A stretch of 52,921 nucleotides of DNA from Saprospiraceae bacterium (GTDB lineage: Bacteria > Bacteroidota > Bacteroidia > Chitinophagales > Saprospiraceae). Below, piece by piece: positions 22,596 to 33,787 of the stretch. The stretch lies in contig JAIPBL010000040.1 of the NCBI GenBank assembly GCA_021739645.1, positions 1-52,921 on the forward strand, read 5' to 3'. The notes below the pieces were generated by a model. It searched no databases and was not told the DNA's origin. It saw only the letters and a program-made list of their open reading frames with translations. The stretch's first letter is position 1. Each line of letters opens with the position of its first letter. A program made the position numbers and the translations under genes.

Positions 22596-23702
22596 TCATA
22601 AAATAGACATTACCAAGTTCACCTTTCCCTCCAAATCTCCCGGATGCAAACTCAGCACCTCATGCCACTTCCCCCAAGTGCCTAATGAATTCACCGCCTT
22701 CACCCAACCCTGCAAGGCTTGGCGCTTGATTTGTGCGGTTTTATCGTTTTTCCCCTTGGTCTCCACCACAACATACGCCCCGTTCTTCAGTCGCACTACA
22801 AAATCAGGGAAATAACGGCGGGGCGAACCATCCCCAAAGTACCAGACGACGAAGCCGAAATGGTCGTTCTTTATCCAAGCATCCACGCAGTCCATTTTGT
22901 CCAAGGTGAAGGCTTCGCTGGCTTCCCAGCCGCTATCCATTGGAAGTCCGTTTAGGTGGCATTTTTCTACGTACCACACAGGCTTGGTCGTCAACCAAAT
23001 AGGCATGTCGGCAGTAGAAATCACTGGGCGCTCTTTGTCAATGATGATTTCGATTTTCTCCGCATTCTGTTCCCTTACTTGCGCCAAAATATGACCGACA
23101 ATATCACTCATGGCAAGCATCAGGGCGATATTCCGTCGTTGTTCATCATTGCTGAATAAGTCCTGCACCAGTCTGACTTTGCCGCTATCAATAAAGTCTT
23201 GAACGATTTTGAGGAATTGTGTAAAAAGGAAAGGCTCTCTCCCCTGCCATTGCTGTTTTTTGAACTCCTGCTCAAACATCCGCTGTGCCACTTTAAATAT
23301 GACACTCTGCAAACGGGTCTCAGGCCCAGCCTTTAAGTCAATATTGGCAATGTCTTTTGCAGCTCCTTTTCCTTCTATTATTGCCCCCAATTCTGCATTG
23401 GTAATAAACCGATAAGGGTCAATTTCCAAGGTGGTCACTTTGTCCTCATCAATGGACAACACTGGACGAAGTATGTTCTCGATGCGGATGATATTCGGCA
23501 GTTCAATTTGATAGCCCGCTTTTTCTGGGACGATTTTGATTTCGTTCTTCTGGAGCGGTGGCGGTGGCGGCGTGGTTTCATCGCCTTCTTGTGGCAAGAT
23601 ATTGAACGGCACACCGAAAATATTCACATACTCCGCTTGCAGTCGGCTATTCGGGTCAAGTGGGTTGCCTTCGTTTTCAAACTCATAGCCTACCCGACGC
23701 AA
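22596..23702 (-). CDS. Type III restriction enzyme Res, 3' half (frameshifted)
   Basis: A 368-residue frame carrying the end of a type III Res subunit. Continuing upstream, the frame reads CEQVIGRGLRRVGYE, which is SF2 helicase motif VI and should be joined to the 5' half. The C-terminal endonuclease domain shows PD (299-300) in YFPDFVV and the E-x-K of VVVETKGK (Glu314), the metal-binding PD-D/E-x-K site. The nominal TTG start at 23702 has no ribosome site. As it stands it cannot make a full enzyme; see the 5' half. Confidence 0.85.
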   Translation of the reverse strand: MRRVGYEFENEGNPLDPNSRLQAEYVNIFGVPFNILPQEGDETTPPPPPLQKNEIKIVPEKAGYQIELPNIIRIENILRPVLSIDEDKVTTLEIDPYRFITNAELGAIIEGKGAAKDIANIDLKAGPETRLQSVIFKVAQRMFEQEFKKQQWQGREPFLFTQFLKIVQDFIDSGKVRLVQDLFSNDEQRRNIALMLAMSDIVGHILAQVREQNAEKIEIIIDKERPVISTADMPIWLTTKPVWYVEKCHLNGLPMDSGWEASEAFTLDKMDCVDAWIKNDHFGFVVWYFGDGSPRRYFPDFVVRLKNGAYVVVETKGKNDKTAQIKRQALQGWVKAVNSLGTWGKWHEVLSLHPGDLEGKVNLVMSIL

Positions 23703-23706
23703 TCCC

Positions 23707-25401
23707 CTACCTATGACCTGCTCGCGAAGAAAACGCCCGCAAGCCCATGATATGCGTCACCGTCTTGGCGTCCCAACCTTCCGACAACATGCTCACACCT
23801 ATCACATTGCAAACCCTTTCGCCCGGTTCTCCGCTGCGGCCAACAGTATCCACCATTAACCGAAGCCGTTCGGCCAGTTTCTCTTTCGTGAGGTTGTCGT
23901 CTTCATTTATTTGAATCGCTTCCCGCTGGCTTTCGGCATCATCCAGCATTTTGGAATCAATTTGTAGGATGCGGTCTGTTTCATACAAGCCCATATCCGC
24001 CATTTCGTCTATTACCCCGTGCAAGCCTTTTCTATCGAACTCATATTTCACCCTTGCCGCTGTCTCGGTATTGTTGCAGATGGTAATCATGCTGGGCAAT
24101 ACCCCTTTCCAATCGGCGGAATTGCGTAGCCAATCATAGTTGAGCAAAATATAGGCATTGCGCACCAAGGAAGGCAAACCCATCGAAGGCGCTGCACCTT
24201 TGAAATTCAGCGAGTCCTTTACTTCGGGGTCATCATAAATATGGTACAACTTGGAATGGATTTCATTACGGATTTTGGCCAAAGCACCATCTGAGCGGAT
24301 AACCACCCTCGGCGTTTTCACCAAACCGGACTCGATAGCATCATACAGGCCAAAATCTGAAACAATCCATGGGAACACCGCTTCCTCGTCACTCTGTTTG
24401 CCGGATGGACTGAAAGGCGTGGCCGTAAAGTCAAAACAACGAAGGATGCCATTGTTCCGATGAATCCTGTCCAAGCCGCCTACCCAGATAGTGGCGTCCT
24501 TTTCTTCTTTTTTAAGGCTTTTTCGTTTACTGCTGACAGGCACCCGCCAAGCGTGGTGCGCTTCGTCATTCAGCACCACAATATTTTTCTCTTTGGACAT
24601 TCGACTGTCCAAAACATCCTTCACATAAGCCTTGTCACTCTTAGCGCCCCGCTTGTCCACAGACTTGCGCTTGGCTATTCGTTCCTCTGTATCCCATGCC
24701 AGCGTATGCCAGTTTTCTATCAAGATATTGCCCTTGCGAAGCTTGGGCATCATTTCCGAAGGAACGATATGATGTGCCTCGTAATAATTGTCCTCGTTCC
24801 AGTCGCCCTCGCCTTTCTTGGCAGATGGATACAGCACCTGCAATCGGCTCTTTACAGTCAGGTTGGGTGCTACGATAAAGATGTTTTTGGTAAACTTCGG
24901 GTTGTTCGGATAATCCATTCGGTTCAGCACCTGCCAAGCGATAGTCATGCCCATCACCAAGGTCTTGCCCGTGCCCGTAGCCATTTTGCAGCATATCCGC
25001 TGCCAAGTGCCGCCGTCGCCTGGTATCTTTTGAGTAAACTGTGCGCCCTCCGGCGTTTCGGACAAGTATATCAGCGTTTCGATCGCTTCTATTTGGCAAA
25101 AGAAAAACTGCGTCATGCCCTCCCGCTTTTCCCGGTCAGTCCAGTGTCGAAGCAGTTTGCGGGTCGTGCCAGTGGTGTATTGGTAACCACCTTCCCGCCA
25201 CTGCCGCACCCGCTCCCGCAGATGGTTCACCGTATCAAGTTCCACGAACTTGCCGACCCCAAACCTCGCCTGTTCACGGGTGGATACCATGTAGCCCGCC
25301 TTGCGTCTGCCTTCCAGTTTTTGGTATTGCTGTGCGCCCACGTTGTTCCAATGCTCGGTTGGCTCGTGGTATGGGTTGTTGCAAATGAGTTTGTCTATCA
25401 T
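23707..25401 (-). CDS. Type III restriction enzyme Res, 5' half (helicase part, truncated)
   Basis: A 564-residue frame with the DEAD/DEAH translocase of type III Res proteins: Walker A ATGTGKT (141-147), DEAH (279-282) in LNDEAHHAWR, FDFTATPFSPSG as motif III, and MLSEGWDAKTVTHIMGLRAFSS as motif V. It then ends in RAGHR-stop, where homologues continue with QLLCEQV-GRGLRR. Comparing the bases with that expected motif, about 11 nt are missing between TCTTCG and CGAGCAG near 23719-23726. Start ATG at 25401; 17 bases upstream lies one of the 33-nt palindromes. Probably a broken gene, unless it is an assembly error. Confidence 0.9.
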   Translation of the reverse strand: MIDKLICNNPYHEPTEHWNNVGAQQYQKLEGRRKAGYMVSTREQARFGVGKFVELDTVNHLRERVRQWREGGYQYTTGTTRKLLRHWTDREKREGMTQFFFCQIEAIETLIYLSETPEGAQFTQKIPGDGGTWQRICCKMATGTGKTLVMGMTIAWQVLNRMDYPNNPKFTKNIFIVAPNLTVKSRLQVLYPSAKKGEGDWNEDNYYEAHHIVPSEMMPKLRKGNILIENWHTLAWDTEERIAKRKSVDKRGAKSDKAYVKDVLDSRMSKEKNIVVLNDEAHHAWRVPVSSKRKSLKKEEKDATIWVGGLDRIHRNNGILRCFDFTATPFSPSGKQSDEEAVFPWIVSDFGLYDAIESGLVKTPRVVIRSDGALAKIRNEIHSKLYHIYDDPEVKDSLNFKGAAPSMGLPSLVRNAYILLNYDWLRNSADWKGVLPSMITICNNTETAARVKYEFDRKGLHGVIDEMADMGLYETDRILQIDSKMLDDAESQREAIQINEDDNLTKEKLAERLRLMVDTVGRSGEPGERVCNVIGVSMLSEGWDAKTVTHIMGLRAFSSRAGHR

Positions 25402-25417
25402 TATCGTTGATTGCTTT

Positions 25418-25450
25418 AGACCCAACAGGTCTTGAGGACCTGTTGGGTCT
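25418..25450. repeat. REP-like palindrome R1 (barcode CCAA/TTGG)
   Basis: 33-nt unit, perfect 14-bp arms AGACCCAACAGGTC and complement around TTGAG. It ends 17 bases upstream of the res ATG, on the minus strand in frame with res. Confidence 0.9.
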
Positions 25451-25472
25451 TTCTTCGCACGAGGCCCGCACG

Positions 25473-25505
25473 AGACCTGACAGGTTTTCAAAACCTGACA
25501 GGTAT
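25473..25505. repeat. REP-like palindrome R2 (degenerate right arm)
   Basis: 33-nt unit, left arm AGACCTGACAGGTTT. The right arm has ACAG where TCAG is expected and ends TAT instead of TCT. Confidence 0.85.
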
Positions 25506-25525
25506 TTTCTCGCCCGTTCGCCTAA

Positions 25526-25558
25526 AGACTCAACAGGTTTTTGAAACCTGTTGAGTCT
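25526..25558. repeat. REP-like palindrome R3 (barcode TCAA/TTGA)
   Basis: 33-nt unit with perfect 15-bp arms (AGACTCAACAGGTTT and complement) and TTG loop. Confidence 0.9.
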
Positions 25559-25570
25559 ATTACCTGCATG

Positions 25571-25603
25571 AGACCAGACAGGTTTTTGAAACCTGTCTGG
25601 TCT
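25571..25603. repeat. REP-like palindrome R4 (barcode CAGA/TCTG)
   Basis: 33-nt unit with perfect 15-bp arms (AGACCAGACAGGTTT and complement) and TTG loop. Lies 5 bases beyond the stop codon of the transposase gene. Confidence 0.9.
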
Positions 25604-25608
25604 ATCAT

Positions 25609-26373
25609 CTAATCATCCTCTATTATCAAATGAGCTATCTTCTTAAAATCCATCTGCTGCTGATGAGCACTCACCAAGTTTTCCCTCGAACCAAACCACG
25701 CAATCACCTCATCCCGCTCCAACTTGGTCGCCGCCGTTGAAAGATATGCGGCATAAGAACAGTGCGGATACTCCCTAAAATCATCGCTTATCCGGTGCAG
25801 TTGCGCATTGGCATTGATGTAAAAAACCAAGTTGCCAAAATGCCTTTCATCTTTGACCACCAGCCGCTTGAAAGGCCGCTCGAACAAACTTCCTGTCCGG
25901 CCCTCCTGCTTGTTGATGGCTTTGGAATAGCTCATAAACAGCAACCTGAATTGCTCGCTGATAAAAGCAGCACAGGCTACATAAAACTGGGCTTCTTGTT
26001 GGGTACTTAGACTTGACAGGTCTTGAAGACCTGTCAAGTCTTTGCCTTCGCCCACGAGACCCGACAGGTTTTCGAAACCTGTCGGGTCTTTGCATCCCTT
26101 CACGAATTTCCAAAACTCCTTTGCCCCAAAGAACACCTCCGCTGGCTTCACCCGTACCAGCAAATGAAAATGGTTAGGTAGTAGGCAATAAGCAAAACTA
26201 TCCAGCCAAAGCGACAGGTAATGCTTGTATTTTTCCAAGAAGAACCCATAGTTTTTGGCTTTGTAGAACAGGTTCTGCTTGTTGTTGCCCCGGTTGAAAA
26301 CATGGTAGTAAACACCGGGCAGCATCGGCGGAAAGTAATCTCGGTATAGCATGTTTGATGGTTTTAGTGTCAT
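25609..26373 (-). CDS. REP-associated tyrosine transposase (RAYT, Y1/IS200-like)
   Basis: A 254-residue HUH single-strand transposase. YYHVFNRGNNKQNLFY (22-37) opens the Y1 domain, HFH (68-70) in LPNHFHLLVR is the HUH metal site, and Tyr185 in FYINANAQLHRI is the likely catalytic tyrosine; the C-terminal EYPHCSYAAYL is also typical. Residues 96-106 (DPTGFENLSGL) and 112-122 (DLTGLQDLSSL) are encoded by two 33-nt palindromes inserted in frame between the EFWKFVKGC helix and STQQEAQF. Palindromes also lie 3 bases before the ATG and 5 bases beyond the stop. A second ATG at 26352 is possible. RAYTs are thought to mobilise REP hairpins. The gene sits between mod and res in the same direction. Confidence 0.9.
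   Translation of the reverse strand: MTLKPSNMLYRDYFPPMLPGVYYHVFNRGNNKQNLFYKAKNYGFFLEKYKHYLSLWLDSFAYCLLPNHFHLLVRVKPAEVFFGAKEFWKFVKGCKDPTGFENLSGLVGEGKDLTGLQDLSSLSTQQEAQFYVACAAFISEQFRLLFMSYSKAINKQEGRTGSLFERPFKRLVVKDERHFGNLVFYINANAQLHRISDDFREYPHCSYAAYLSTAATKLERDEVIAWFGSRENLVSAHQQQMDFKKIAHLIIEDD
26009..26041. repeat. REP-like palindrome R5, in frame inside the RAYT gene (TTGA/TCAA)
   Basis: Perfect 15-bp arms AGACTTGACAGGTCT and complement around TGA. Encodes residues 112-122 of the transposase. Confidence 0.9.
26057..26089. repeat. REP-like palindrome R6, in frame inside the RAYT gene (CCGA/TCGG)
   Basis: 33-nt unit, 15-bp arms AGACCCGACAGGTTT and complement around TCG. Encodes residues 96-106 of the transposase. 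Confidence 0.9.
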
Positions 26374-26375
26374 TC

Positions 26376-26408
26376 AAACCAGACAGGTCTTGAAGCCCTG
26401 TCTGGTTT
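26376..26408. repeat. REP-like palindrome R7 at the RAYT start (CAGA/TCTG)
   Basis: 33-nt unit AAACCAGACAGGTCT-TGA with one mismatch in the right arm (AGCCCTG). It begins 3 bases upstream of the transposase ATG and so would cover its ribosome-binding region. Confidence 0.88.
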
Positions 26409-26426
26409 TTTCACTTCCCTCACCCC

Positions 26427-26459
26427 AGACCCAACAGGTTTTTGAAACCTGTTGGGTCT
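26427..26459. repeat. REP-like palindrome R8 (CCAA/TTGG)
   Basis: 33-nt unit, perfect 15-bp arms AGACCCAACAGGTTT and complement, TTG loop. Confidence 0.9.
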
Positions 26460-26486
26460 CTACCGTTCCAGCCAAGCCAAGCTCCA

Positions 26487-26519
26487 AGACCAGACAGGTT
26501 TCAAAAACCTGTCTGGTCT
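26487..26519. repeat. REP-like palindrome R9 (CAGA/TCTG, loop CAA)
   Basis: 33-nt unit, perfect 15-bp arms AGACCAGACAGGTTT and complement. Its loop reads CAA, the reverse of most others. Lies 10 bases beyond the mod stop codon. Confidence 0.9.
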
Positions 26520-26529
26520 CTCACACGCA

Positions 26530-29037
26530 CTAGACCAGCCTAAGAATCCGCATACTCTCCACCCCCCGGTTGTCTATCACCTTCACTGCCACCTGACCAT
26601 GCGGGCCAACCTCGAAAGGCAGCGACTCTGTGCCACGGTAGGCTTCCAAAAGTTCAGTGTCTATTTCTGCGGAAAGCACCTTGGCCAACTGTGCCCAGCC
26701 ATCCTTTTTGCCACTGGCCATCGGGAAAAAGATTTGGTCGGGGCGAAGGAAGCGGTCGTTGTAATCCGTGTCCAGCAGCCACATGGCGATGTCGCCCTTG
26801 CCGCCGCTCTCTATTTTTTGCTCCACCACATTGTAATAATCGAAGCCATGCACCGAGATGACGTACTGGCCACCATCCGCCTTTTTCAGTTTCACGTCTG
26901 GCTGGCCGATGAGCCAAAAACTATCGCCCTTCTGTTTTTTCTTCAAATCCTCTACCAGCAGGTCGGTGTCAATTTGCGCCAGCAGGATGTCGAGGCCGCC
27001 CCAAGTGCTTTTCTCCACGTACTCATGCACCCCGGCGTCGAACTGGTAGGCAAGGAACAGCACCTTCTGCACTTTCGGGCGTAGTACGAATGCCTGCCCC
27101 ATCGCCTTGTCCACCCACGATTTGTCCATCGGAGTATATTCATTGCCCAATACGACTGCCACCAAATCTCCTGCCTCGCCGTTCTCCGTTTTTACCTCGG
27201 CACGGGCTTGTACATGGCTGAGGTTCAGGTCATGGCCTCCGGCGGAAGTGGCCAATAATTCCAGATTGGTGAATTGGAGGCGCTGGCCCGACTTGCCCCG
27301 CACCCCTTTGGTCATCAGTTCGTCCAACAGGCTTTCGAGGCGGGTAGTGGCCTTGCCGGGAGTATCCGATTGGACGGCACCCGCCGACAGTTGATAGTTC
27401 GTTTCATCCGGCGAGGCGGCCATCGCACTGGGCACGGCTTCTATGGTGAATGGCGAGCAGGCCCGTATCCGTTTCCTGTCCACTTTGGGTTTGTCATAGA
27501 GGGTTTCCATCGGGGCAGGCTCGTTATTGGCGATGCTCTTGAGGGTGATATGCGGCACTTCTTCATACACGAAATCGCCGGACACGCCTTCTTGCTCCGA
27601 CTTGAGTTGAAAATAAGGAAACACCGCAGTCATCAGCCGCTGCTTGGCAAGCGTGATAGCTATCCTACTCGTATCACAAGTTATCCAGCGGCGGCCCCAC
27701 TGCTCGGCGACGTAGGCGGTGGTGCCGCTGCCGCAGGTGATGTCAAGGACGAGGTCGCCGGGGGAGGTGGTCATTAAGAGGCAACGGGTAATTACTTTTG
27801 TTCCTGTTTGGACAACATAAACTTTGTTGTCGGTAAAATTTCCGGTTGCAGTATCATCCCATAAATTTGTAAACGCTTTATATGGAAAGTCGTCTGCAAA
27901 CCTTATATATCTTATGCTATTTTTTGCAACATGAATTCTTCCTTTTTCACCGAGTTTTTTTAGACCTTCAAGTGACGTTTTCCAATGTTGTCCAATCCCA
28001 GGAAGATATTTTTTTCCTATAAATTCAAATTCCTGTGGAGAGTTTGTTTCACCTTGTGAAATTAGGCTTGTGGGCTGGTATAGTTGAGCATTTTCTGGTA
28101 TTAGCTTTTCACCTCTCGTTTCTTCTGCGTTTAACCCTCTGTAATCACCATTTGGAAATAGTAACCAGCCGTAGTTTCCTGATGTAACATCTGTATCCTT
28201 TGGCTTAAATAAGGACTTGTAATTTACTTGGCTACCGTTTTTTGCATACCATACTACATAATCTCCATTTCGAGCAAGGGTTGAACTATCAAAGCCACTT
28301 GTCGTTACAAAACTTATCAAACTCACGAAATTCTCCGCCCCAAACACCTCGTCCATAATCATCCTCACCCGGTGCACATTTTCATCCGAAATCTGTACAA
28401 ATATGCTCCCGCTCTCTGCCAGCAGTTCCCTTGCCAACAGCAATCTATCCCGCAGGTAAGTAAGGTAAGAGTGTATGCCCAACTGCCACGTATCCCGGAA
28501 GGCTTTAATCATTTCAGGTTCGGAGGAGAGGTCGTTGTCGCTGCCGTCCTTCACATCCCGCTTGTCGGTAAAGGGCTGGAAATTGCTCTGGTACTTGATG
28601 CCATAGGGCGGGTCGAAGTAAATCATCTGCACCGCCCCGGCCATGGCCTCTTTTTCGAGCAGGGAGTTCATCACGAGGAGGCTGTCACCCGCCACGAGTC
28701 GGTTTTCCCAGTTTTGGGCATGTTTGTAAAATTCGAGGGCATCGCCGAGCGGCATGTCGGGCGGAGCAAAGAGGTCACCCTGCACACCGACGCCTTTTTT
28801 GCGCACGGCCTCCATTACTTTTTTCGGGTCAATGCGCTCGTGGGTATGCAAGCTGACCGTGGGCACTTCAAAGGAGGTGCGCTCAGTCTTCCCGGCCCAT
28901 TGCAGTTGCGGGTCGAGGTGGGGGTCGTATTCGTAGTCTTTCTTCATAGTAGCGGAGGCCTCTTTTTCATCCACCAGCCCGATTGGCGGGTTGTTGAGGC
29001 GGGTTTTTCCTTTGTGGCTGTTTTGTTCTGCTGGCAT
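26530..29037 (-). CDS. Type III restriction-modification DNA methyltransferase (Mod)
   Basis: An 835-residue N6-adenine methyltransferase of the beta class: DPPY (142-145) in IYFDPPYGIKYQ comes before the AdoMet-binding LDITCGSGTTAYV (about 425-440), with the target-recognition region between them. It modifies DNA and gives the type III complex its specificity. The recognition region (about residues 236-419) is much richer in A+T than the flanks. The C-terminal 350 residues contain helical and beta segments (LAQIDTDLLVEDLKKKQ, QYVISVHGFDYYNV) seen in long Mod proteins. The start at MPAEQN (29037) is preferred; the open frame extends upstream into palindrome R10, which encodes MTGFKNLSGL. First gene of the mod-RAYT-res cluster. 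Because res looks broken, Mod may act alone. Confidence 0.92.
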   Translation of the reverse strand: MPAEQNSHKGKTRLNNPPIGLVDEKEASATMKKDYEYDPHLDPQLQWAGKTERTSFEVPTVSLHTHERIDPKKVMEAVRKKGVGVQGDLFAPPDMPLGDALEFYKHAQNWENRLVAGDSLLVMNSLLEKEAMAGAVQMIYFDPPYGIKYQSNFQPFTDKRDVKDGSDNDLSSEPEMIKAFRDTWQLGIHSYLTYLRDRLLLARELLAESGSIFVQISDENVHRVRMIMDEVFGAENFVSLISFVTTSGFDSSTLARNGDYVVWYAKNGSQVNYKSLFKPKDTDVTSGNYGWLLFPNGDYRGLNAEETRGEKLIPENAQLYQPTSLISQGETNSPQEFEFIGKKYLPGIGQHWKTSLEGLKKLGEKGRIHVAKNSIRYIRFADDFPYKAFTNLWDDTATGNFTDNKVYVVQTGTKVITRCLLMTTSPGDLVLDITCGSGTTAYVAEQWGRRWITCDTSRIAITLAKQRLMTAVFPYFQLKSEQEGVSGDFVYEEVPHITLKSIANNEPAPMETLYDKPKVDRKRIRACSPFTIEAVPSAMAASPDETNYQLSAGAVQSDTPGKATTRLESLLDELMTKGVRGKSGQRLQFTNLELLATSAGGHDLNLSHVQARAEVKTENGEAGDLVAVVLGNEYTPMDKSWVDKAMGQAFVLRPKVQKVLFLAYQFDAGVHEYVEKSTWGGLDILLAQIDTDLLVEDLKKKQKGDSFWLIGQPDVKLKKADGGQYVISVHGFDYYNVVEQKIESGGKGDIAMWLLDTDYNDRFLRPDQIFFPMASGKKDGWAQLAKVLSAEIDTELLEAYRGTESLPFEVGPHGQVAVKVIDNRGVESMRILRLV
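27781..28330. other. AT-rich island in the target-recognition region of mod
   Basis: Hand counts of three 60-base lines (from 27841, 27901 and 27961) give 38, 28 and 37 percent G+C. The line from 27721 gives 65 percent and the line from 28561 gives 52 percent. The edges fall between the conserved methylase motifs, as expected for a swapped recognition domain. Confidence 0.7.
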
Positions 29038-29074
29038 TGGAATGGGTGGTTGGTTATGATATGGGAAGACCGGA

Positions 29075-29107
29075 AGACCTGACAGGTTTTTGAAACCTGT
29101 CAAGTCT
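29075..29107. repeat. REP-like palindrome R10 upstream of mod (CTGA/TCAA)
   Basis: 33-nt unit AGACCTGACAGGTTT-TTG, with one non-matching base pair in the barcode block (CTGA against TCAA). Ends 38 bases upstream of the mod ATG. Confidence 0.9.
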
Positions 29108-29350
29108 TGTGCAATGCAGGTCTCATGCGTTGGTTATTTGTGCGCTGCAAGTTAGCCAATCGACTGAAAACTAATACATTCCATGCGTTTTTTTCATCAT
29201 CCCATCACCATGACCACGTTGTTCCCGGCTAACCCGCAGGACCCGTCCGCCTCAGAAGGAAGAGCGACATTTTTCTTTCAAAATATTTACACGGAGAATA
29301 ATTTCAGCAGACACTCCCCTGAAACCAAAAACCAGAAACCAGAAAACGAC

Positions 29351-29358
29351 TACATTTG
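29351..29358 (+). promoter_or_regulatory. -7 element (TACATTTG) of the HMG-CoA lyase gene
   Basis: Exact TAnnTTTG match only 4 bases before the ATG at 29363. If used, the mRNA would be leaderless or nearly so. Confidence 0.4.
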
Positions 29359-29362
29359 CCGC

Positions 29363-30241
29363 ATGCCTTACCCAACTCCCTCCAAAATAAAACTCATCGA
29401 ATGCCCCCGTGATGCCATGCAGGGGCTGAAGGACTACATTCCAACGGAAATCAAAGCTGCCTACATCAACCAGTTGCTGAAAGTGGGCTTCGATACCCTG
29501 GATTTTGGCAGCTTTGTTTCACCAAAGGCCATCCCACAAATGCGAGACACAGCGGAGGTTTTGGCACAACTTGATTTATCAAATACCGACACCAAGCTGC
29601 TCGCCATCGTCGCCAATCAGCGGGGTGCAGAGGATGCGGCCAAATTTCCAGATATCAACTACCTTGGCTACCCGTTCTCCATTTCAGAGACTTTTCAAAT
29701 CCGAAACACCAACGCCACCATTGAGGAATCGCTGCAACGGGTGGAAGAAATTCAGGCGATTTGTTTGCGGAGCAACAAAGAAATGGTGGTGTACATCAGC
29801 ATGGGTTTCGGCAACCCCTACGGCGACCCCTGGAACGCCGAAACAGTGGTGAAATGGGTGGACAGACTTTCTGACATGGGTATCCGAATTCTCCAGCTTT
29901 CTGACACCATCGGCGTTTCAAACCCGGCGAGCATCAAATACTTGTTCTCCAACCTGATACCGCTCTACGAACCCAAGGGCATCGAAATTGGCGCCCACTT
30001 GCACACCGAACCGCACAACTGGAAGGAGAAAATTCAGGCCGCCTGGGAAAGTGGCTGCGCCCGATTCGATGGCGCCATCAAAGGCTTCGGCGGCTGCCCA
30101 ATGGCCAAGGACGACCTCACTGGTAATATGCCGATGGAGAACATTATCCATTTCTTCAAAAACCGACAGCTCGAAACGGGGATAGACGAGAGTGCCCTTG
30201 AGTCGGCCATGAGTATGGCGCTTGAGGTGTTTCCGCATTGA
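29363..30241 (+). CDS. Hydroxymethylglutaryl-CoA lyase
   Basis: A 292-residue TIM-barrel lyase splitting HMG-CoA into acetyl-CoA and acetoacetate in leucine breakdown. It shows the HMGL-like signature LIECPRDAMQG (Arg16, Asp17 for catalysis and metal), the metal-binding GAHLHTEPHNW, and GFGGCPMAKDDLTGN with the active-site Cys245 of the lyase signature loop. Length fits the family (about 290-300). The ATG at 29363 is chosen because the catalytic motif follows within 13 residues and upstream frame sequence is not conserved-looking. The stop overlaps an octad array and precedes the Mpo1-like gene by 76 bases. Confidence 0.93.
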   Translation: MPYPTPSKIKLIECPRDAMQGLKDYIPTEIKAAYINQLLKVGFDTLDFGSFVSPKAIPQMRDTAEVLAQLDLSNTDTKLLAIVANQRGAEDAAKFPDINYLGYPFSISETFQIRNTNATIEESLQRVEEIQAICLRSNKEMVVYISMGFGNPYGDPWNAETVVKWVDRLSDMGIRILQLSDTIGVSNPASIKYLFSNLIPLYEPKGIEIGAHLHTEPHNWKEKIQAAWESGCARFDGAIKGFGGCPMAKDDLTGNMPMENIIHFFKNRQLETGIDESALESAMSMALEVFPH

Positions 30242-30271
30242 GGTATTGGATTATTGAGGTATTGAGGTATT
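30237..30271. repeat. Octad array ATTGAGGT at the end of the HMG-CoA lyase gene
   Basis: Four units of period 8 (ATTGAGGT, ATTGGATT, ATTGAGGT, ATTGAGGT) begin in the lyase stop codon. Confidence 0.65.
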
Positions 30272-30287
30272 TTGTGCCATCACGAAA

Positions 30288-30317
30288 ACAATCTAACAAT
30301 TTAACAATACAACAATC
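30288..30317. repeat. Octad array ACAATnnA ending at the Mpo1-like start codon
   Basis: Units ACAATCTA, ACAATTTA, ACAATACA and ACAATC follow at period 8, ending directly at the ATG (30318). The constant CAAT is the complement of the ATTG of the preceding array. Confidence 0.65.
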
Positions 30318-30791
30318 ATGGCAAAGCAAATTGATACCCTCCTCGACAAATACGGCGAAAGTCACCAAAACGCCATCAACAAACTTATCCATTGGGTTTG
30401 TGTGCCTAGCATCATGTTTAGCCTATTCGGGCTATTGTACGCAATTCCTTTTTTCACGGAAAGAAGCCTGTACGCCAACTGGGCGACCTATGCGCTAGTG
30501 TTCGCCTTGATTTATTACATGCGGCTCTCAAAGCCGATGTTTTTCGGCTTCATTTTGATTGGAGGAGCAATGGTTTATGGGGCAGATTCCATTTATCAAA
30601 CCACGCTCGGTGACGCCAAAATGCTTGCCCTGATTTCGCTCTTCATTTTCGTAGTAGCCTGGATTTTCCAGTTTATTGGCCACAAGATTGAGGGCAAAAA
30701 GCCGTCATTTTTGGAGGACTTGCAATTCCTGCTCATTGGCCCAGCTTGGTTGCTGCATTTTATTTACAAAAAGGTAGGAATCAGCTATTGA
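30318..30791 (+). CDS. Mpo1-like (DUF962) membrane protein
   Basis: A 157-residue membrane protein of the Mpo1/YGL010w family. YGESHQNAINKLIHWVCVPSIMFS (about 12-35) has the conserved Asn and two His, and WIFQFIGHKIEGKKPSFLEDLQFLLIGPAWLLHF (about 112-145) gives the second pair of His plus the conserved P-x-x-L-x-D-L. The four histidines bind iron in yeast Mpo1, which shortens 2-hydroxy fatty acids by alpha-oxidation. Four hydrophobic helices fit. Relevance to sphingolipid-type hydroxy fatty acids is suggestive given the S1P-lyase-like gene, but the two are far apart. Confidence 0.88.
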   Translation: MAKQIDTLLDKYGESHQNAINKLIHWVCVPSIMFSLFGLLYAIPFFTERSLYANWATYALVFALIYYMRLSKPMFFGFILIGGAMVYGADSIYQTTLGDAKMLALISLFIFVVAWIFQFIGHKIEGKKPSFLEDLQFLLIGPAWLLHFIYKKVGISY

Positions 30792-30806
30792 GGAGGCTAG
30801 TCATTA

Positions 30807-30841
30807 GACTGCCAACTGCCCACTGGCGAACTGCCCACTTC
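30807..30841. repeat. Heptad repeat ACTGCCM between convergent genes
   Basis: Units ACTGCCA and ACTGCCC repeat at period 7. The 35-base block matches the minus strand of 17445-17479 at 31 of 35 bases. Its last two bases overlap the end of the hypothetical gene at 30840. Confidence 0.7.
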
Positions 30842-31424
30842 AACGTGTCGCCTTCACGTCTGTTTCCCAATATTCCGGTCGGCGCACTTCGCCACGTTCA
30901 CCGATGTTTTCTCCTTCGTAATTGCCAAAACAGTCGAGGATATTAAGGAAAAGGTCTTCCCGTTTTTCAACGTAAAGCCTGAAAAGTTGGAGCACTTCGT
31001 CCATGGAGGCGCATTTCCTGCCGGAACGCAGGTCAATCACCCACTTGCCCTTCATCGCCTTGGTGTTCTTTTCGATGGGACGGTTCACCCGTGTTTTGGG
31101 CATGAGGAACAAGTCGAGCACGCTAAAAAAGTAGTAGTCATTCAGTAAATTATCTCGAACTACCATGCCGGAGTAGGGGCCAAAAGCTAAGATTTTTCGG
31201 GCAGCAAGGTCGTCAATGATGAAAGTGAAAGGTTCTTGTTCAGCGGTGATTTTCCAATTGTACAGGTTGATTTTCTGACGTTTTTCCTTGGCATCAAAAT
31301 GAAAAGTCCAGTTTTCGTCCAGCCGGACACTGAAATCCAGCCGCTTGAAGGAGCTTGAATTGTCCTTGTATTCCAGCTTATTGGTCAGCAGGAATTTTTT
31401 TATTTCTTGCTCAAAGCTTATCAT
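30840..31424 (-). CDS. Hypothetical protein with possible (D/E)-x-K motif
   Basis: A 194-residue soluble protein. I recognise no family. LDFSVRLDENWTFHFDAKEK (about 29-48) has the spacing of D and D-x-K that some PD-(D/E)xK nucleases show, but this is weak. Further on, an alpha/beta portion (FTFIIDDLAARKILAFGPYSG, YYFFSVLDLFLMP) and an acidic tail follow. It runs after the 159-residue hypothetical gene with a gap of 38 bases, so the two probably form one transcript from the 31989 -7 element. Confidence 0.7.
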   Translation of the reverse strand: MISFEQEIKKFLLTNKLEYKDNSSSFKRLDFSVRLDENWTFHFDAKEKRQKINLYNWKITAEQEPFTFIIDDLAARKILAFGPYSGMVVRDNLLNDYYFFSVLDLFLMPKTRVNRPIEKNTKAMKGKWVIDLRSGRKCASMDEVLQLFRLYVEKREDLFLNILDCFGNYEGENIGERGEVRRPEYWETDVKATR

Positions 31425-31462
31425 TTTTGATATTGAATTGATGAATTTGCTGAGACATTTTT

Positions 31463-31942
31463 TTATGCCAATTCTATCATTCGACCATCTGGCAACAACT
31501 CCATTTCTCGTGCTGTACTTTGACTGGCATCGTAATCCTCATCTGAACCTTCGGCCATGCCACTAACCATGTAAATCGTCATATCCTCATCAATGCGTGC
31601 CACTGTTCGGATGATACTGAGACCGTCGGAAACCGTACCGGCTATCACGTGACTGTCTATCAATTTGCCGCTTTTTTCAAACGTGGCAAGTATGTATTGA
31701 TAATTGAGCAGCCCGGCCTTCCAGTAAACAATGGCATGAATGTCCTTCAAACCGGCAATCCGAAACCCTGGCACAAATTCGGTCATTTCGTCCACATCGG
31801 GGTCAATTTCAAGGAGGAATTCGTCAATGGCTTTTTGAGGCATTGCGATGTTTTGCAGGCTGTAGTCAGAAGCACTTTCTTCCGTAATTGAAATCGGTAG
31901 CTTCTCTTCCGGGAATATTTGAATAAACTGGTTAAAAGTCAT
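31463..31942 (-). CDS. Hypothetical acidic protein
   Basis: A 159-residue protein, mostly Asp/Glu-rich, with no signal peptide or membrane helix. The centre has a beta-like region (FRIAGLKDIHAIVYWKAGLLNYQYILATF, then IDSHVIAGTVSDG) and the C-terminus is acidic (EGSDEDYDASQSTAREMELLPDG). No family recognised. First of a two-gene transcript diverging from murB. Confidence 0.7.
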   Translation of the reverse strand: MTFNQFIQIFPEEKLPISITEESASDYSLQNIAMPQKAIDEFLLEIDPDVDEMTEFVPGFRIAGLKDIHAIVYWKAGLLNYQYILATFEKSGKLIDSHVIAGTVSDGLSIIRTVARIDEDMTIYMVSGMAEGSDEDYDASQSTAREMELLPDGRMIELA

Positions 31943-31988
31943 GGTTAGCTAGTATTTTTTGTTTAAAATATGCGGGCAAGGTGAGCGG

Positions 31989-31996
31989 CAAAAGTA
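31989..31996 (-). promoter_or_regulatory. -7 element (TACTTTTG) for the hypothetical gene pair
   Basis: Exact TAnnTTTG on the minus strand, 47 bases before the ATG at 31942. No clear -33 element. Confidence 0.4.
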
Positions 31997-32060
31997 AGTT
32001 GGTGTGCCTAGGAATTCAACTTGGCGGAGAGATTCTTCCTGAATTTCTAAAAACCACTGG

Positions 32061-32068
32061 TACTTTTG
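32061..32068 (+). promoter_or_regulatory. -7 element (TACTTTTG) of murB
   Basis: Exact TAnnTTTG, 14 bases upstream of the murB ATG at 32083, supporting that start over the longer frame. Confidence 0.45.
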
Positions 32069-32082
32069 CGCAAATTGAACAC

Positions 32083-33099
32083 ATGATAAGCATCGAAATC
32101 CATCGGAATTTTTCCTTAAAAAAATTGAACACATTCGGGATTGAGGCAAAGGCCGAAGAGCTCGTCATTGTGCGCACGCCGATGGCATTGCACCAACTCA
32201 TCCAATTAAGACGCTCCCCAATCCAAGTGCTCGGCGGTGGCAGCAACCTACTTTTTACAGGCGACCTGCCGGGTTTGACCATTAAAAATGAAATAGACGG
32301 CATTGAAATCTTCATAGAAAACAAGCATGATGTTTTGGTCAAAGTCGGGGGTGGGGTAGTGTGGCATGACTTCGTGTTATGGGCAGTCGAGCAGGGATAT
32401 GGCGGCATCGAAAACCTCTCGCTCATACCCGGAACGGTGGGCGCTGCACCCATTCAAAATATCGGAGCGTATGGCGTGGAGCTAAAGGACGTTTTTCAAT
32501 CGCTTGAGGCGTACGATTTGACCACAGGCGAATCCCATACTTTTAGCCATTCTGACTGCCATTTTGGTTATCGGGACAGCGTTTTCAAACGGGATTTAAA
32601 AGGCAGGTTTTGTATTGCAAACGTTTATTTTCAACTCCAAAAAGCACCTAAAATCAACACCGACTACGGTGATATTCAGCTTACTCTGCAAAGTTTGGGA
32701 ATTGAAAATCCAAGCATCAAAGACGTAAGCAATGCGGTCATTCACATCCGCCAAAGTAAATTGCCGAACCCAGCCGTGATAGGAAATGCAGGCAGTTTTT
32801 TCAAAAATCCAGAACTGGAAGCGGTTGATTTTCAACGATTTATCGAGAGATTTCCCCAAGCACCAAATTACCCACAGCCCGATGGCCGGGTGAAAGTCCC
32901 CGCGGGCTGGCTCATCGAACAGGCGGGCTGGAAGGGCAAACGCTTCGGTGATGCAGGCTGCCATGCCAAGCAGGCACTGGTACTGGTGAATTACGGCGGG
33001 GCGACGGGCGAGGAAATTTTGGCTTTGGCTGAAAAAATCCAGGCGTCCGTGCTGGAGAAATATGGCATTGCACTGACGCCTGAAGTGAATGTTTGGTAG
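32083..33099 (+). CDS. murB: UDP-N-acetylenolpyruvoylglucosamine reductase
   Basis: A 338-residue type I MurB, an FAD enzyme that reduces UDP-GlcNAc-enolpyruvate to UDP-MurNAc in peptidoglycan synthesis. FAD-binding VLGGGSNLLF, IENLSLIPGTVGAAPIQNIGAYG, the Tyr163 loop in FGYRDS that marks type I enzymes, the proton donor Ser238 in GNAGSFFKNP, and the C-terminal PEVNVW with Glu334 are all present. LIEQAGWKG corresponds to E. coli LIDQ. Start chosen at 32083 after the -7 element. Its last five codons, including the stop, are repeated 92 bases downstream. Confidence 0.96.
   Translation: MISIEIHRNFSLKKLNTFGIEAKAEELVIVRTPMALHQLIQLRRSPIQVLGGGSNLLFTGDLPGLTIKNEIDGIEIFIENKHDVLVKVGGGVVWHDFVLWAVEQGYGGIENLSLIPGTVGAAPIQNIGAYGVELKDVFQSLEAYDLTTGESHTFSHSDCHFGYRDSVFKRDLKGRFCIANVYFQLQKAPKINTDYGDIQLTLQSLGIENPSIKDVSNAVIHIRQSKLPNPAVIGNAGSFFKNPELEAVDFQRFIERFPQAPNYPQPDGRVKVPAGWLIEQAGWKGKRFGDAGCHAKQALVLVNYGGATGEEILALAEKIQASVLEKYGIALTPEVNVW
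33085..33099. repeat. 15-bp direct repeat, copy in the murB stop region
   Basis: GTGAATGTTTGGTAG encodes VNVW-stop of murB. An identical copy lies at 33177-33191. Palindrome R11 lies between them. Confidence 0.85.
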
Positions 33100-33139
33100 G
33101 ATGATTTGGAGTAGGTCAAAGTGGAGGATATTTATTCTC

Positions 33140-33172
33140 AGACCTGTCAGGTTTTTGAAATCTGACAGGTCT
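33140..33172. repeat. REP-like palindrome R11 downstream of murB (CTGT/ACAG)
   Basis: 33-nt unit with left arm AGACCTGTCAGGTTT and TTG loop; one mismatch (AAATCTG) in the right arm. It lies about 4 kb from R10 and 7 kb from the transposase cluster. Confidence 0.9.
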
Positions 33173-33176
33173 TACC

Positions 33177-33191
33177 GTGAATGTTTGGTAG
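33177..33191. repeat. 15-bp direct repeat, second copy
   Basis: Identical to 33085-33099 and offset by 92 bases. It lies just downstream of R11 and just outside the end of the minus-strand lipoprotein gene. Confidence 0.85.
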
Positions 33192-33196
33192 AATTA

Positions 33197-33787
33197 TTAT
33201 TCTATTTTTTCCAAGTGAAAAATCACTTCTTCACCCACCAAGTCCCAATTCCCGTCCCCCAAATCTTTCATTTCAAAAGCATTCTTTTCATCGCCATCCT
33301 CCCAAAGGTAAAATTTCCCGCTTTTGATTTCCCAGAAATTTCCTTCGCCAGAACCCACCTGGATTTTAGATCGCTTGCCGAACATCACATGGCCATCCTC
33401 CTTGAATTCTGCTTTAAAGCGCAATCCTTCCACAATGCCACGGCCAAGGTCAATGCCCATTTTGCCGAGACTTTCACCAAGCCCAGCGAGTCCTTGCGCT
33501 AGTTCGCCCATGCCCTCCACGAAGTTGCCAACGGCATTGCCCAAGTGACTGTCTTCACCCATCTCCGCATCGATGTCTTCTTTTGCATTTGCAATTTCAT
33601 CCTTGATTTCCTTTTTGGCCTCGGAAATTTCTTTTGAAACATCCTTTTTGGCCTTTTCCATTTCTTTGGTTGCCTCCGGCAAATGGAGGGTGACTTGGTA
33701 GCGTCCTGCGAATGCCTTTTCACGGGCTTTGTCCGATTGGCAAGAAGCAATGAGGATTAGGAGCAGTGCGATTGAAAGGTACTTCAT
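33197..33787 (-). CDS. Hypothetical lipoprotein with coiled-coil segment
   Basis: A 196-residue protein with signal peptide and lipobox LIASC (Cys16). Residues about 36-78 are a highly charged Lys/Glu helix, likely a coiled coil. A Gly-rich amphipathic stretch follows (GNAVGNFVEGMGELAQGLAG), then a beta-rich C-terminus (KAEFKEDGHVMFG, FYLWEDGDEKNAFEM) that resembles lipocalin-like or DUF-type sensing domains but is not identified. Monocistronic. Confidence 0.75.
   Translation of the reverse strand: MKYLSIALLLILIASCQSDKAREKAFAGRYQVTLHLPEATKEMEKAKKDVSKEISEAKKEIKDEIANAKEDIDAEMGEDSHLGNAVGNFVEGMGELAQGLAGLGESLGKMGIDLGRGIVEGLRFKAEFKEDGHVMFGKRSKIQVGSGEGNFWEIKSGKFYLWEDGDEKNAFEMKDLGDGNWDLVGEEVIFHLEKIE

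Follow-up and report, generated by a model that had tools for sequence, protein, structure and literature searches.

A RAYT-like gene and its surrounding family of 33-nucleotide palindromes in a Saprospiraceae genome

Contig JAIPBL010000040.1 of a Saprospiraceae bacterium (52,921 nucleotides (nt), here called the window; it spans contig C30 completely, one of the 147 that make up a genome of 6.16 Mb) carries eleven palindromes of 33 nt and, surrounded by them, a gene for a REP-associated tyrosine transposase (RAYT; REP, repetitive extragenic palindrome). These units are probably REP-like elements whose copying is, or was, served by this RAYT gene. The reading is carried by the RAYT neighbourhood of the units, the link between RAYT and unit type, the peak at 33 nt, covariation at two levels, copies in frame inside genes, and short linkers at the same places in relatives, all of which were observed.

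The palindromes of the window and their RAYT gene

All eleven palindromes described in a first-pass annotation of the window were located, each consisting of a 15-bp stem and a 3-nt loop. Positions within a unit are counted from 1 to 33; the palindromes have no strand.

25418..25450, strand.: palindrome, 33 nt, block CCAA/TTGG
25473..25505, strand.: palindrome, imperfect (A.A at 8/26), ends GTAT
25526..25558, strand.: palindrome, 33 nt, block TCAA/TTGA
25571..25603, strand.: palindrome, 33 nt, block CAGA/TCTG
25609..26373, strand -: RAYT (TnpAREP-like HuH/Y1 transposase), P0001, 254 aa, NHFH at residues 67-70, Tyr185
26009..26041, strand.: palindrome within the RAYT gene, in frame; minus strand reads ..DLTGLQDLSSL..
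26057..26089, strand.: palindrome within the RAYT gene, in frame; minus strand reads ..DPTGFENLSGL..
26376..26408, strand.: palindrome, AAAC...GTTT variant, block CAGA/TCTG, T.C at 13/21
26427..26459, strand.: palindrome, 33 nt, block CCAA/TTGG
26487..26519, strand.: palindrome, 33 nt, block CAGA/TCTG
29075..29107, strand.: palindrome, imperfect (C.A at 5/29)
33140..33172, strand.: palindrome, block CTGT/ACAG, G.T at 12/22

The pattern AGAC-N4-CAGG...CCTG-N4-GTCT is matched exactly by 8 of the 11 units and has no match in 100 dinucleotide shuffles of the window. Contrary to the earlier claim, the constant parts are not common to all units: three depart from them (AAAC...GTTT at 26376, the GTAT end at 25473, and TCTG in place of CCTG at 33140). 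The four-base block between the constant parts is complementary across the hairpin in nine of the eleven, in agreement with the earlier description. Since its fourth base is A in 10/11 units, the block in the window is mostly one of 3 bp. Cells changed on both sides number 17 in the eleven units vs. 4.5 in shuffles. The typical spacing of 45-60 nt in small groups, also noted before, holds, and the arrangement is irregular otherwise. A CRISPR array was considered and rejected: the groups are small, the spacing elsewhere is irregular, and the repeats themselves vary.

The proposed tie between the units and a RAYT gene was supported; this gene (25609-26373, minus strand) lies among them. In P0001, the HuH motif (NHFH) and Tyr185 are invariant in all 17 aligned RAYTs. 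The AlphaFold model of the protein (predicted local distance difference test, pLDDT, 88.9) has its best fold match in the PDB in 4er8_A (E 5.4e-6, TMt 0.67), and a profile search with P0001 gave 4er8 as its sole match (E 3.1e-4). This nearest fold is the E. coli RAYT in complex with a REP hairpin. Two of the eleven units sit in the P0001 open reading frame (ORF), in frame, between HuH and Tyr.

The RAYT gene and nine units stand within a restriction-modification locus (window 22596-29103, minus strand), with a type III-like methyltransferase at 26530-29103 and a BPTD_3080-type endonuclease whose coding sequence is broken into two ORFs, 23707-25491 and 22596-23702, that lie in different frames. 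The second RAYT of the genome (L025, G000:C91, 266-3463) lies with its own 33-nt palindromes between cas1 and cas4, for which the best PADLOC models are Cas1b and Cas4b; an adjoining ORF has a Cas3 C-terminal match. Both RAYTs of this kind in the genome occupy defence loci. A possible plasmid origin gave no lead, one plasmid record being matched at 27.8%.

Unit length at RAYT loci and copies inside genes

RAYTs of this kind were found in 10 of 14 genomes of the genus, own genome included, and at 15 of 19 such loci a 33-mer lies inside 1 kb, often with an unrelated stem. The palindrome of L025 (contig C91) is AAATCATGGTGATTT-N3-AAATCACCATGATTT, and the unit family of the L060 RAYT, with arm AACGTCGGGGAGGTT, differs from that of the window. 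The length was followed in a wider set of 80 named RAYT loci, the best-scoring of 521 and not a random draw, mostly from Bacteroidota with a few from Gammaproteobacteria, Chloroflexi, KSB1 and Calditrichaceae. Within 1 kb of these loci 113 of 215 palindromes are exactly 33 nt long, vs. 10 of 37 in about equal length of DNA more than 1.5 kb away. One of the named loci, from the cultured Flavilitoribacter nigricans DSM 23189, carries three 33-mers at its RAYT. Two further sets of 52 loci each, drawn as the best-scoring 30 per search and again not at random, peak at 33 nt as well (43 palindromes of this length and 11 of the next most frequent one; 37 and 10 in the second set). The first contains one near-double, leaving 51 distinct loci, 39 of them with a unit; one entry of the second repeats a named locus. 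A recount of 99 loci removed three double entries and gave 66 of 96 distinct loci with at least one 33-mer of at least 14/15 pairs. Five duplicate loci had been removed before the first further set, the count of units inside RAYTs, the Mantel test and the count at the WQ place; the remaining double entries are included in the Mantel, GTAG-foot, WQ-place and within-locus variation counts.

RAYT identity and arm identity are correlated (Mantel r 0.314, reached in 0 of 2000 permutations), a correlation of which common descent alone could supply part. Similar arms recur at different RAYTs, so the relation of one RAYT to one family is not universal; 104 representative arms comprise 81 distinct ones, with an effective number of about 23. 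The 33-nt rule has exceptions, because a Thiomargarita RAYT locus (L126) has ten palindrome copies, nine measuring 31 nt and the tenth 27. Longer palindromes with stems of 28-47 bp replace or extend the 33-mers at L063, L073, L123, L125 and L145. At L071 (G006:C2), seventeen tandem 33-mers spaced by 58-70 nt lie upstream of the RAYT (176-1156), and more copies within the end of its reading frame (1795-2002) code for a repeated peptide.

Copies inside genes include those in the RAYTs themselves. One or more units lie between HuH and Tyr in 51 of 134 distinct RAYT ORFs (from 53 such cases among 137 RAYTs, with L058 removed beforehand), and 45 of 57 RAYT-internal units, doubles still included, share one codon phase. 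The internal unit resembles the flanking units of its own locus (median identity 15/15; 28 of 36 reach at least 13/15) more than those of other loci (mean 9.8). In-frame REPs between HuH and Tyr were described for RAYT subclass 2.4, which is abundant among Cyanobacteria and Bacteroidetes (Quentin, 2018, PMC6006769).

Among the dispersed units of the genome, 7 of 19 are in frame in genes with Pfam domains (MG2, IcmF-like mutase, HsdM, FAD monooxygenase, sensor kinase, nonribosomal peptide synthetase, and DNA polymerase III alpha) and one more is in a domainless ORF; location in genes sets these seven apart from canonical REPs, which are extragenic. The linker of the IcmF-like protein carries the own-genome unit type here, and in genome G006 the type of the G006 RAYT on contig C53. 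In the alignment of 13 sequences (L244 left out), nine have a short linker and two have other inserts. The polymerase linker contains two units here and a 33-mer of a third family in G001, with none in the other 6 of 8 aligned sequences; L252, L253 and L258, where the motif is absent, and L254, L256 and L257 were left out of this comparison. The second 33-mer in the polymerase gene, next to the unit (L030, G000:C126, 1547-1579), belongs to another family, with the arm AGTGACCGGGTGACT, and resembles a palindrome near the RAYT of G003 C27 (L080). The unit in frame in the HsdM type I methylase gene (L031, G000:C116, 1501-1533) is overlapped by another 33-nt match 18 bases on.

Paired change and symmetry within the units

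A covariance model of the window family was searched against the whole genome (E <= 1e-3), as the first-pass annotation had proposed together with a test against chance. The eleven window units and 19 others form a set of 30, from which three weak matches (E 0.006-0.12) were excluded. Divergent copies may be missing, since the units were collected by the family's own pattern and model and the model scored 150 of 6964 first-look candidates. The left block occurs in 14 types and is fully paired with the right one in 23 of 30 units, which exceeds chance (mean 2.97 and maximum 10 in 10,000 shuffles of the right block). Cells changed on both sides number 38 in 26 genome units vs. 7.8 in shuffles, and vs. 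2 of 390 cells with a one-sided wobble. Some change also reaches the constant parts: the pairs 2/32, 11/23 and 14/20 outside the block likewise change on both sides. Family matches are distributed patchily, in 21 of 40 genomes (the own genome and 39 relatives).

The same variation was looked for within 45 other RAYT loci, using 84 variant units of 247 with both arms at least 11/15 identical to the local reference and no pairing filter. Changes in both arms number 96, vs. 13.5 if the arms changed independently, and 89 of the 96 are complementary; one-sided changes number 69. The complementary changes fall mainly at positions 2, 4-8 and 14 (77 of 89), with 7 of 89 at positions 9-13, where 14 of the 69 one-sided changes are found; with a pairing filter, two-sided change at 10-12 is similarly low. 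The variable block is therefore a general feature of the units of this clade, and a barcode unique to the window locus is rejected; the wider notion of a barcode between constant parts is not supported either, given that loci with various stems vary mostly at the same positions. Paired variation that is concentrated at 2, 4-8 and 14 and sparse at 9-13 makes the block resemble the portion of a recognition site in which change is tolerated. The earlier statement that a hairpin and not a sequence is conserved holds for the hairpin, kept through paired change; the sequence of the upper stem is conserved too.

A second level of symmetry was found within the arms. In 23 non-redundant arms of 15 nt, 109 of 138 possible pairs about position 8 are complementary (shuffled 37.1, sd 5.2; z 13.8), and every other centre gives z of 3.1 or less. 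When the 105 position pairs of 81 arms are ranked post hoc by covariation, the top five are 3-13, 5-11, 4-12, 8-9 and 6-10, four of which are self-pairs about the arm centre. A second prespecified test on 4 arms reached its threshold (z 5.8); its looser arm set was post hoc, and no held-out arm came from a repeated locus. The held-out arms pooled (n=10) have 38 of 60 self-pairs (z 5.9). From this self-pairing it follows that the unit is close to 6-3-6-3-6-3-6. The first-pass annotation noted neither this arm symmetry, nor 33 nt as the most frequent length across families, nor the in-frame position of two units in the RAYT gene. Folding of five units gave -13.6 to -16.9 kcal/mol for the 15-bp hairpin and +1.1 to -8.5 kcal/mol for two mini-hairpins; the two-mini-hairpin fold is a possibility and no finding, because the long hairpin is favoured in 5/5.

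Explanations and known systems

We infer that the RAYT binds, cleaves and transposes the units, and infer likewise the direction of the changes. In single-stranded DNA, such as the lagging-strand template, a unit would fold into the 15-bp hairpin with its 3-nt loop. The HuH/Tyr enzyme would then recognise the 33-nt length, the outermost A...T and the conserved stretch of the upper stem (9-13), cut and rejoin strands, and leave copies between genes and in tolerant protein linkers. The lower block (4-8), if read mainly as paired helix, would drift while both arms change together, with pairing maintained through the requirement for a hairpin, through arm-to-arm copying at a stalled fork, or through both. 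Judging from its palindromic arms, the unit may consist of two 15-nt mini-hairpins set close together in inverted orientation, like a REPIN reduced to nothing but its ends. What moves may be a single 33-mer or two of them spaced 45-60 nt apart. A more far-reaching proposal is that the RAYTs of this clade swapped the GTAG guide for a geometric code, that the nested palindrome with two exclusive folds is a copying switch, and that the in-frame unit co-evolves with the targets, the RAYT carrying its own target and regulating or re-seeding the family; this we consider a long shot.

Some observations weigh against a RAYT-served, REP-like element with nested arms. P0001 scores 35.6 bits with the family model NF047646, below its 80-bit cut-off, and also stays below the curated cut-off of Pfam Y1_Tnp. 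No 33-mer of at least 14 pairs lies inside 1 kb at 30 of 96 distinct loci, and no movement of a unit was observed. A GTAG/GTGG foot within 12 nt is present at 26 of 446 flanks vs. 31 in a reversed control, and the W of the WQ motif is found in 0 of 137 RAYTs (11 of 148 loci, where HuH or Tyr was not located, were left out); the unit is thus not a canonical GTAG REP, and the missing foot in the DNA and the missing W in the protein agree. The linker around the IcmF unit differs as well, so this unit is no clean 33-nt insertion. At the loosest arm threshold, one-sided changes exceed two-sided ones (253 vs. 157). As for the arms, the first prespecified test missed its threshold (z 3.5 on 6 new arms; >4 was set), with a column-preserving control that was not significant (15 vs. 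12.4 +- 2.5), and the second, planned outside Bacteroidota, was run inside Bacteroidota. Forced into two mini-hairpins, some units are unstable (+1.1 vs. -16.1 kcal/mol for the long hairpin), and the arm fold is not universal, because the pair 6-10 in the window family is kept in 21 of 30 units and broken in 9.

Pairing might also be kept by mutation, with hairpin template switching rewriting a mutated arm and the units being inert leftovers, which seems to us unlikely, though not negligible. Two-sided changes far above independence (96 vs. 13.5) are what it would produce, as is the scarcity of one-sided wobble pairs in the own genome (2/390 vs. 38 two-sided). However, the change is position-specific: of the 89 two-sided changes 7 fall at 9-13, as do 14 of the 69 one-sided ones, and blind arm copying is disfavoured because it would not spare this segment. 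The 33-nt peak and the arm-internal symmetry across families point instead to recognition, and one-sided changes are frequent when no pairing filter is applied (69 vs. 89 two-sided). That the units work as RNA in the gaps between genes, either terminating in both directions or stabilising mRNA, is quite improbable. Perfect 15-bp hairpins stand in several intergenic gaps and such functions are in print for REPs (Quentin, 2018, PMC6006769), but none of nine terminator-like sites in 25000-33500 coincides with a unit, an Rfam search gave no match, and units are present inside recognised genes and RAYT genes; terminators and Rfam families were rejected as candidates on these results. Inheritance of a few ancestral units without paired evolution would account for copies that share most of the stem and for the many loci with similar arms (81 distinct of 104), but it is scarcely credible in view of 14 left blocks, of 23/30 paired blocks vs. 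a shuffle maximum of 10 (the shuffles ignore relatedness), and of paired change found separately at 45 other loci; plain inheritance was rejected on the block pairing statistics and this variation.

The preferred reading, of REP-like elements served by the RAYT, bears on repeat recognition by RAYTs from beyond the Proteobacteria that have been studied. Since many RAYT/palindrome pairs share length and symmetry and differ in their stems, length, sequence and pairing can be separated in tests. The in-frame copies show a route by which such a repeat can enter proteins, and with a copy within the RAYT gene the evolution of element and enzyme can be traced at one site.

The kind of element, RAYT-linked and REP-like, is already known; its 33-nt length, nested arms and missing GTAG and W were not found described. 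Systems of this kind were reportedly worked on by Nunvar in 2010. The literature compared includes Nunvar 2013 (PMC3686654) and Corneloup 2021 (PMC8266576), which treats REP/RAYT systems. In the passages compared from these and the papers cited below, no common 33-nt length, nested arms, paired variation at 2, 4-8 and 14, or joint loss of the GTAG foot and W was found stated. Priority is uncertain, since Figure 9 of Di Nocera 2013 (PMC3733652) mentions double palindromic TIRs. Compensatory change within a paired block, which the first-pass annotation did not know as described, is already in print for REPINs (Bertels and Rainey, 2011, PMC3116915).

With REP/RAYT systems (TnpAREP, REPtrons) the present one shares an HuH/Y1 gene flanked by its own palindromes and dispersed copies; it differs in units without the GT[AG]G foot, RAYTs without WQ, the 33-nt peak and the palindromic arms. 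The WQ motif is tabulated for RAYT subclasses 2.4-2.7, and the region of W94, Q95 and R104 is conserved where REPs bear GTAG; it was suggested to read GTAG, the role of W94 being called unclear (Quentin, 2018, PMC6006769). Here the corresponding place, taken to follow R-x-G, has L and then F, I or L clearly in about 126 of 137 RAYTs (LFE or LFQ in 77), and the pattern is misplaced in about 11; two other RAYT-like genes of the genome (L022, L024) have WE there. The atypical structures of subclass 2.6 are similar in lacking GT[AG]G, in occurring in Bacteroidetes and elsewhere in the genome, and in a Tyr motif, YIH[QN]NP, that resembles the YIHxNP common to these RAYTs. They are described as weaker structures, whereas perfect 15-bp hairpins are found here, and the sections compared state neither a 33-nt length nor a nested symmetry (Quentin, 2018, PMC6006769). 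TIRYTs and TIRtrons are RAYT-like genes between inverted repeats unrelated to GTAG, some of these repeats "partly or wholly self-complementary" and some "double palindromic"; a common length and position-specific covariation are not stated in the section compared (Di Nocera, 2013, PMC3733652). Palindromes in frame in unrelated genes are also known as Rickettsia palindromic elements, which are about 150 bp long, in contrast to 33 nt with RAYT genes nearby here (PMC10969869). Two inverted REPs with a variable middle and frequent compensatory changes form a REPIN, in which conserved ends of 16 nt enclose a spacer (Bertels and Rainey, 2011, PMC3116915); the present unit measures 33 nt overall, and its arms behave like inverted 15-nt palindromes.

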